A DNA stretch of 64,000 nt from Halobacillus hunanensis (lineage in GTDB: Bacteria; Bacillota; Bacilli; Bacillales; Halobacillaceae). Positions 60,815-62,757 of this stretch are shown piece by piece. The notes under the pieces were generated by a model. It did no database searches. It had not been told where the DNA came from and saw nothing but the letters and a program-made list of their open reading frames with translations. Position 1 is the stretch's first letter. Each line of letters begins with the position of its first letter. The DNA is taken from contig NZ_FVZB01000007.1 of assembly GCF_900166655.1 (NCBI RefSeq), positions 806,001 to 870,000 on the forward strand, given 5' to 3'. Both the position numbers and the translations under genes were made by a program.

Positions 60815-60853
60815 AAAAAATCCGGAAGCCATTGAGTGGCTCCCGGATTTTTT
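60815..60853. terminator. Two-way terminator between glnA and lexA
   Basis: AAAAAATCCGG-AGCCA at 60815-60831 pairs with TGGCT-CCGGATTTTTT at 60837-60853, with flanking A and T runs on each side. It should stop transcripts from both directions. Confidence 0.88.
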
Positions 60854-61475
60854 AATGGACTGTGCGATAAAGTCCGACTACTTTGCCTAGTATCGAAACA
60901 TCATTTAGTATAATCGGTTCCATCGTTGCGTTCTCAGGCTGCAAGCGAATATGCGTTTTCTCTTTGAAAAATCGCTTAACGGTAGCTTCTTCCTCTTCTG
61001 TCATAGCTACAACGATGTCGCCATTTTCTGCTGTTTGCTGTTGACGAACAATGACCATATCTCCATTTAAAATACCCGCCTCAATCATACTATCTCCCTG
61101 AACAACAAGGACGAAAGTATTTTCATCAGCTCCTGCCAATGAGTCCGGAAGAGGCACATACTCTTCAATGTTTTCTATAGCAGTGATCGGTGAACCAGCT
61201 GTTACTGTACCAATAACCGGGGCATAAGAAGCTTCACCCCTTGGGATGTTCTGATCTTCTTCTAAGTCAATGACCTCTATGGCTCTCGGTTTCGTAGGGT
61301 CTCTCCTTAAATAACCTTTTTTCTCTAATCGCGAAAGGTGGCCATGCACGGTTGAGCTTGAAGCAAGGCCGACAGATTGTCCAATTTCTCTTACGGAAGG
61401 GGGATAGCCCTTCAATAAGACCTGTTCTTTAATAAAATCTAGTATAGCTTGCTGACGTTTTGAAAGTTTATTCAT
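60852..61475 (-). CDS. lexA: LexA repressor
   Basis: LexA represses the SOS genes and cleaves itself when RecA is activated. The helix-turn-helix region is [39 protein letters not shown]. The cleavage site Ala-Gly is in [14 protein letters not shown], the Ser of the protease pair in [11 protein letters not shown] and the Lys in [11 protein letters not shown]. 207 residues. The start is ATG 61475 (MNKLSK) rather than the upstream in-frame ATG at 61598. It is divergent from the small SOS gene. Confidence 0.97.
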
Positions 61476-61537: not shown

Positions 61538-61631
61538 CAAACAAGCGTTCGAAAATTCTTGACAGGAACGACTGTTCGTATATAATAAAAAGTAACAAAC
61601 GCGAACAAACGTTTCTGGGAACGGTTGTTCT
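61538..61631. promoter_or_regulatory. SOS control region with four LexA-box-like sites
   Basis: Sites of the form CGAAC-N4-GTTCG: CAAACAAGCGTTCG (61538-61551), GGAACGACTGTTCG (61565-61578), CGAACAAACGTTTC (61602-61615) and GGAACGGTTGTTCT (61618-61631). The -35 TTGACA is at 61559-61564 and the -10 TATAAT at 61581-61586. The second site sits between them, so LexA would block the promoter. Each site has one or two departures from the consensus. Confidence 0.88.
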
Positions 61632-61650
61632 AATCGGGAGGATGAATCAT

Positions 61651-61746
61651 ATGTTTAACAAACTTTCAAAGCTCGATATTACGTATATTCTATTGTTTGC
61701 GGCAAGTTTAGCTTTTTTATATTTCTCTATGGTCACAAGTATATAA
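61651..61746 (+). CDS. 31-residue SOS-controlled membrane peptide at the yneA position
   Basis: The peptide MFNKLSKLDITYILLFAASL... ends FLYFSMVTSI and has one membrane segment covering most of its length. GGGAGG stands nine bases before ATG 61651. B. subtilis yneA at this place makes a division inhibitor of about 100 residues, with a membrane segment and a LysM domain. Here the gene ends after the membrane segment. No LysM sequence follows in any frame before yneB. It may be a minimal inhibitor, or a truncated yneA. Confidence 0.7.
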   Translation: MFNKLSKLDITYILLFAASLAFLYFSMVTSI

Positions 61747-61782: not shown

Positions 61783-62448
<666 letters not shown>

Positions 62449-62523
62449 TATATGAATTAGAACAAGGGTCATTTGGCGCTTGTATTTTTCATGGCGAATA
62501 CCAGGTAAGGGGGTATGGGCAAA

Positions 62524-62757
62524 ATGTTATCTAATGAAAAGCTTAACAGAATTAATGAACTAGCCAATAAATCAAAACAGGAAGGCCTAAATAAGGCTGA
62601 AAAAGAGGAGCAGAAAAAGCTGCGTCAGGAATATTTAAAAAATGTTCGGAGCTCCTTTAAAAACCAGCTTAAGGGTATGACAGTTGTTGATCCAGAAGGC
62701 AATGATGTTACACCGGAAAAGGTTAAAAAGATGCAGCAAAACGAGAAAAAGCATTAA
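62524..62757 (+). CDS. ynzC: YnzC, DUF896 family
   Basis: The 77-residue protein (LSNEKLNRINELANKSKQEGLNKAEKEEQKKLRQEYLKNVRSSFKNQL) is a helical hairpin that fits DUF896. In B. subtilis YnzC is the third gene of the SOS yneA operon. I use ATG 62524; ATG 62515 is in frame but too close to the AAGGGGG site. Confidence 0.9.
   Translation: MLSNEKLNRINELANKSKQEGLNKAEKEEQKKLRQEYLKNVRSSFKNQLKGMTVVDPEGNDVTPEKVKKMQQNEKKH

Follow-up and report, generated by a model that had tools for sequence, protein, structure and literature searches.

A 31-residue membrane peptide behind LexA-like boxes in the yneA slot of Halobacillus hunanensis and related bacteria: a candidate minimal division inhibitor

The YneA protein of Bacillus subtilis inhibits cell division during the SOS response and carries a LysM domain. 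It reaches the septum via TM7 of FtsW, residues K5, E6, F10, V11 and F14 being required, and its membrane segment alone is found at midcell without blocking division, wall binding by the LysM domain being essential (PMC13396833). With a helix that is inert by itself and an indispensable LysM domain, how FtsW is inhibited in B. subtilis is an open question (PMC13396833). The activity of SosA depends on its extracellular part (PMC6851548), while Caulobacter SidA, of 29 residues, is the minimal precedent (PMC4211646), and DinQ (27 aa) and TisB are precedents for SOS membrane peptides (PMC3567139).

In this work, we analyzed a window of 64,000 nucleotides of Halobacillus hunanensis (contig NZ_FVZB01000007.1, positions 806,001 to 870,000), in which the slot between lexA and yneB holds the gene of a 31-residue peptide. 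A sequence-only reading of this DNA had described four LexA-box-like sites, a -35/-10 pair, a strong ribosome site, a peptide that is almost only one membrane helix, and then yneB and ynzC; each of these elements was recovered:

60852..61475, minus strand: lexA, divergent from the peptide gene (TIGR00498, E=2.5e-77)
61538..61551, plus strand: LexA-like box 1, CAAACAAGCGTTCG, 1 mismatch to CGAACNNNNGTTCG; its reverse complement fits CGAACNNNNGTTYG
61559..61586, plus strand: sigma-70/sigma-A promoter sequence, TTGACA-16-TATAAT, 12/12 consensus match
61565..61578, plus strand: LexA-like box 2, GGAACGACTGTTCG, 1 mismatch to CGAACNNNNGTTCG; fills the promoter spacer
61602..61615, plus strand: LexA-like box 3, CGAACAAACGTTTC, 2 mismatches to CGAACNNNNGTTCG
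61618..61631, plus strand: LexA-like box 4, GGAACGGTTGTTCT, 2 mismatches to CGAACNNNNGTTCG
61636..61641, plus strand: Shine-Dalgarno motif GGGAGG, read from the sequence, 9 nt before the ATG at 61651
61651..61746, plus strand: ORF of the 31-residue single-transmembrane peptide, MFNKLSKLDITYILLFAASLAFLYFSMVTSI
61789..62448, plus strand: yneB, resolvase-like (NF049883, E=6e-105)
62515..62757, plus strand: ynzC, DUF896 (PF05979, E=6e-31)

The peptide gene is single-copy in this genome and has a short leader of ~60 nt, and a purine-rich motif resembling a Shine-Dalgarno sequence is found at the equivalent place in related loci. An in-frame upstream ATG at 61642 would make 34 aa, an unlikely start because it abuts the ribosome site and because relatives begin (MF) at the position of 61651. 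Downstream, yneB follows in the same direction after 42 nt and is probably in the same operon, and a transketolase-like gene comes after ynzC. LexA-like sites are expected by chance at ~14 per 64 kb, or ~0.02 in the 94-bp stretch that holds the four boxes. Over the 90 loci compared, the mean number of boxes upstream of the peptide was 3.2 per locus vs 0.05 in shuffles, with similar distances from the start codon across loci and in about the same number as at slots holding a LysM yneA. From this arrangement we infer that LexA binds the boxes and that the gene is induced when it is released. Separately, at position 1500 of loci L095 and L096 we observed transposase/TnpB-like genes (MATKTILVKLKHVTKKKHKQF...), each with a perfect CGAACNNNNGTTTG LexA-box-like site at its start, which could be coincidental or could place an insertion element under SOS control.

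We compared this peptide with its counterparts in 10 genomes of the same genus and in 80 named loci found via yneB, some genomes being in both collections; the genera covered include Halobacillus, Thalassobacillus, Pontibacillus, Terribacillus, Virgibacillus, Oceanobacillus, Sediminibacillus, Lentibacillus, Ornithinibacillus and Paraliobacillus. These loci belong to the family of the window (f1) and to another family of the same order (f8). A peptide of 30-31 residues, rarely up to 35, was found between lexA and yneB in all 90 loci with both flanking genes, with the consensus form MFxKLSKxDxFYxxxFxxxLxFLYxSMVTS (the slot peptide of L003, read from the sequence, is MFNKLSKLDITYILLFAASLAFLYFSMVTSL). 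In the 62 distinct peptide sequences D9, F16 and Y24 never vary and M1, F2, K7 and Y12 hardly do, conservation being concentrated on one face of the helix (p=0.006). The pN/pS ratio of the Halobacillus-type copies is 0.17 in the peptide frame vs 0.95 and 1.99 when the other two frames are read. AlphaFold2 predicts a single helix spanning residues 7-29 (mean pLDDT 89.8), a single transmembrane helix is also obtained from hydropathy, and the ORF stops two residues beyond the helix, with no extracellular LysM domain. By these sequence measures, the peptide gene is real, conserved and under purifying selection. Searches of Pfam and NCBIfam, the YneA model included, gave no family match for the peptide, the solved structures searched held no relevant match, and the literature searched contained no paper on yneA in Halobacillus or Oceanobacillus. 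The gene is shorter than the usual annotation length and has no family model in the libraries searched, and this family of micropeptides under the control of SOS boxes appears to be undescribed.

The proximity of the ORF to yneB, in the same direction, could also suggest that it is a leader, translated in order to regulate yneB and ynzC, the peptide product itself being irrelevant. We rejected this reading on the pN/pS value, and it is very improbable as well in view of the invariant residues and the conserved helix face, of the diverged prophage copies described below, which have no yneB, and of some f8 genomes that retain yneB without the peptide.

The fate of yneA itself was followed across families. 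The short peptide is present in the f1 genomes read and in the f8 genomes G194, G215 and G317, and a search with the peptide profile found it in 142 of 159 f8 genomes. The slot is filled by a YneA of ~90-110 residues in families f2, f3, f4, f5, f6, f9 and f11 of the same order (with an exception in f3, locus G183, whose stretch yielded no lexA) and also, within the same class, in f13, f22, f23 and one f18 genome, while in the Staphylococcaceae-like f26 it holds a SosA-like protein of 78-96 residues. Among the aligned YneAs of the sister families, the NCBIfam YneA model NF010723 matches 21 of 21 and LysM 18 of 21. A YneA profile search of f1 and f8 retrieved only generic LysM proteins and no YneA, these matches reaching at most 35 bits, mostly in frames >150 aa, vs 88 bits with NF010723 for a real YneA. 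In the f8 genomes without a strong peptide match the slot holds YneA in none; many of these slots are empty, with lexA to yneB distances of 135-200 nt in several. At L197 (G411), the peptide gene looks like a frameshifted remnant, with LexA-like boxes and a promoter-like stretch still in place.

The sequence-only reading had left room for a truncated yneA produced by a recent nonsense mutation, and had proposed comparing the length of the slot in related genera. That comparison gave the 30-31 residues, rarely up to 35, already described, and recent truncation is excluded because a LysM YneA is absent from the f1 and f8 relatives examined and purifying selection conserves the short form. A random ORF, or a recently truncated but otherwise normal yneA, has nothing but the short length in its favor, against conservation in 90 loci, and its probability is close to nil. 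By gene order, the peptide has taken over the position of yneA in two bacterial families, and the simplest account would be that the LysM YneA was lost in the f1/f8 ancestor and that the helix-only peptide has persisted from then on, apart from some later losses.

Descent from the membrane segment of YneA is not demonstrable, because the profile comparison of the peptide with the N-terminal region of YneA (hhalign score 13.2) does not exceed column-permuted controls (median 12.3, maximum 20.6). Where the helix begins on the cytoplasmic side, a motif [FY]xxxF is present in 62 of 62 peptides and in 12 of 21 YneAs, where 5.5 would be expected (p=0.001). It is at this part of B. subtilis YneA that the residues required for septal localization (K5, E6, F10, V11 and F14) are located (PMC13396833).

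Taken together, these results point towards an SOS-induced division inhibitor that replaces YneA in Halobacillus and its relatives by docking its helix on FtsW, a reading to which we give a probability of roughly 0.55. A minimal division inhibitor without the wall-binding domain, as the sequence-only reading had suggested, is the best-supported interpretation of the peptide. In the proposed mechanism, LexA would repress the gene through three to four boxes; upon DNA damage LexA would be cleaved and the strong promoter would fire; the peptide would enter the membrane as one helix with its N terminus inside; and the conserved face (D9, Y12, F16, L20, Y24) would dock on the septal wall polymerase FtsW, holding it inactive until repair. 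The peptide would thereby act entirely from inside the membrane, like Caulobacter SidA, with no LysM wall binding. We infer the division inhibition, the FtsW target, the membrane orientation and the transient action from the comparative evidence.

Part of this evidence concerns FtsW. SEDS proteins were gathered from 50 genomes and a subset was classified by means of a maximum-likelihood tree. Canonical FtsW was intact in all 16 peptide-bearing f1/f8 genomes examined vs 2 of 12 peptide-lacking f8 genomes (G453 and G456); nine of the latter are without it, and in G401 the ftsW gene, beside pyc, is broken by an internal deletion of ~130 codons. Fisher's test gives p = 5e-6 if genomes are taken as independent, which is not a probability in this case as the genomes share phylogeny. 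The co-loss stems from few independent events, one set comprising genera g126-g129, g138, g145 and g158 (perhaps one clade) and another G492/G401, and probably no fewer than two lineages took part, given that G493 and G494, the genus siblings of G492, carry the peptide. In the f8 group in which canonical FtsW is lost (G345, G346, G347, G348, G350, G380, G402, G467 and G492) or broken (G401), at L336-L345 and L357, we also observed a tandem pair of other SEDS genes. In the FtsWs of L298-L335, the stretch directly after TM7 is ~7 residues shorter in f1/f8 than in hosts of a LysM YneA, and the FtsWs of two Staphylococcaceae, which are SosA hosts with no LysM, are likewise short. The difference in this loop is a trait of whole clades and, since several other SEDS paralogues are also short after TM7, it may be the long form that is derived. 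The shortening agrees with a change in whatever lies above FtsW, with few events behind it.

Indirect evidence in favor of the FtsW inhibitor thus comprises (i) the occupancy of the slot in 90 of 90 loci, (ii) the LexA-like boxes, (iii) the purifying selection, (iv) the conserved helix face, (v) the co-loss with FtsW, (vi) the TM7 loop, (vii) the [FY]xxxF motif and (viii) the SidA precedent. Against it, the helix of B. subtilis YneA alone is inactive, SosA needs its extracellular part, there is no homology to YneA above controls, and FtsW is retained in G453 and G456, which have no peptide. This leaves two options: the short peptide acquired an inhibitory contact, aided by the altered FtsW, or it does no more than modulate. 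As a modulator, it would be a remnant of YneA that still reaches the divisome via FtsW and, instead of blocking it, competes with or tunes septal synthesis or slightly delays division. The septal localization and lack of toxicity of B. subtilis YneA without LysM agree with such a role, and the strong purifying selection requires some function, but three to four LexA-like boxes and a near-consensus promoter kept over two families suggest a strong, tightly controlled effect, and we consider a mere modulator improbable.

The peptide could also be an SOS-induced membrane toxin like TisB or DinQ that, without a partner in the divisome, depolarizes the membrane and slows growth when DNA is damaged. 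Its size, single helix and LexA control are those of these precedents (PMC3567139). However, TisB and DinQ have antisense RNAs and processed leaders, whereas here the leader is short and we found no Rfam match and no promoter-like site on the minus strand in or near the peptide gene, a search that an unknown small RNA may escape. Furthermore, the peptide sits in the conserved slot of yneA, has specific residues and one face of its helix conserved, and tends to vanish along with FtsW, all of which make a toxin of this type rather unlikely.

A second, diverged copy of the peptide is present in several f8 genomes, with E values of 7e-9 to 9e-5 per genome among those followed. The copy at L178 (2998-3115), MNKLDYVDWFYLVAFGLTLAFIYYGLVTA, adjoins an integrase (phrog_1, E=4e-73) and phage families. 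Copies lie in prophage early regions, near integrase, repressor/anti-repressor and recombination genes, at L178, L179, L181, L182, L183, L184, L185, L187 and L189; diverged copies at L177, L180 and L188 are found in mobile-looking regions, perhaps plasmids or plasmid-prophages, beside ORFs for a serine recombinase/resolvase and ParB-like and helicase-like ORFs. Two more are in IMG/VR viral contigs (L210 and L212). With the pattern used, no LexA box was found upstream of those among the prophage copies that were read for it, and tblastn of these copies against phage records gave no match, queries of ~30 residues being weak. Within 80 viral contigs collected via an SbcC-like neighbour, strong scores were obtained only for the L210 and L212 type, with weak ones for L219 (E=0.013) and L236 (E=0.001), and other phages carry unrelated small membrane peptides in the equivalent position. 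The prophage copies may likewise serve phages as division inhibitors, but convergence is easy for short hydrophobic peptides. A wider proposal, which we regard as doubtful, is that a 30-residue family common to the SOS checkpoint of halophilic Bacillaceae and to their prophages inhibits FtsW wholly in the membrane, having replaced the LysM-dependent YneA while FtsW changed beside the contact helix, and being turned by phages as well against host division; the peptide would then represent a minimal protein that inhibits septal wall synthesis.

The present clade amounts to a natural deletion experiment, as a whole group of bacteria was left with the helix only, conserved and behind LexA-like boxes. 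If the peptide still stops division, a helix of 31 residues would suffice to inactivate a SEDS polymerase in Gram-positives. Were this true, the contact on FtsW would be directly mappable and could serve as a template for FtsW inhibitors.

Each of the described systems shares some traits with the peptide. YneA of B. subtilis (NF010723 / PRK14125) occupies the same slot between lexA and yneB, with ~3 LexA boxes and a single N-terminal membrane helix, and many YneA members have the motif at the helix entry; in contrast, the peptide is without LysM and extracellular part, has 30-31 instead of ~100 residues, and shows no detectable sequence homology. In E. coli, TisB and DinQ are likewise LexA-controlled, of 27-29 residues and with one membrane helix, but they are type I toxins with antisense RNAs, DinQ depolarizing the membrane. 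Staphylococcus SosA is SOS-induced, adjoins lexA and has a single helix without LysM, and the FtsW of its host is also short after TM7; however, SosA has 77 residues, needs its extracellular C-terminal part of ~40 residues for activity and is turned over by CtpA, whereas the peptide described here ends with the helix and leaves almost nothing outside the membrane. Finally, Caulobacter SidA has ~30 residues, one membrane helix and LexA control, in a different phylum and at a different locus, and no homology is claimed; as a 29-residue inner-membrane peptide that inhibits division through FtsW, it offers the analogy by which the logic of the present peptide is probably alike.
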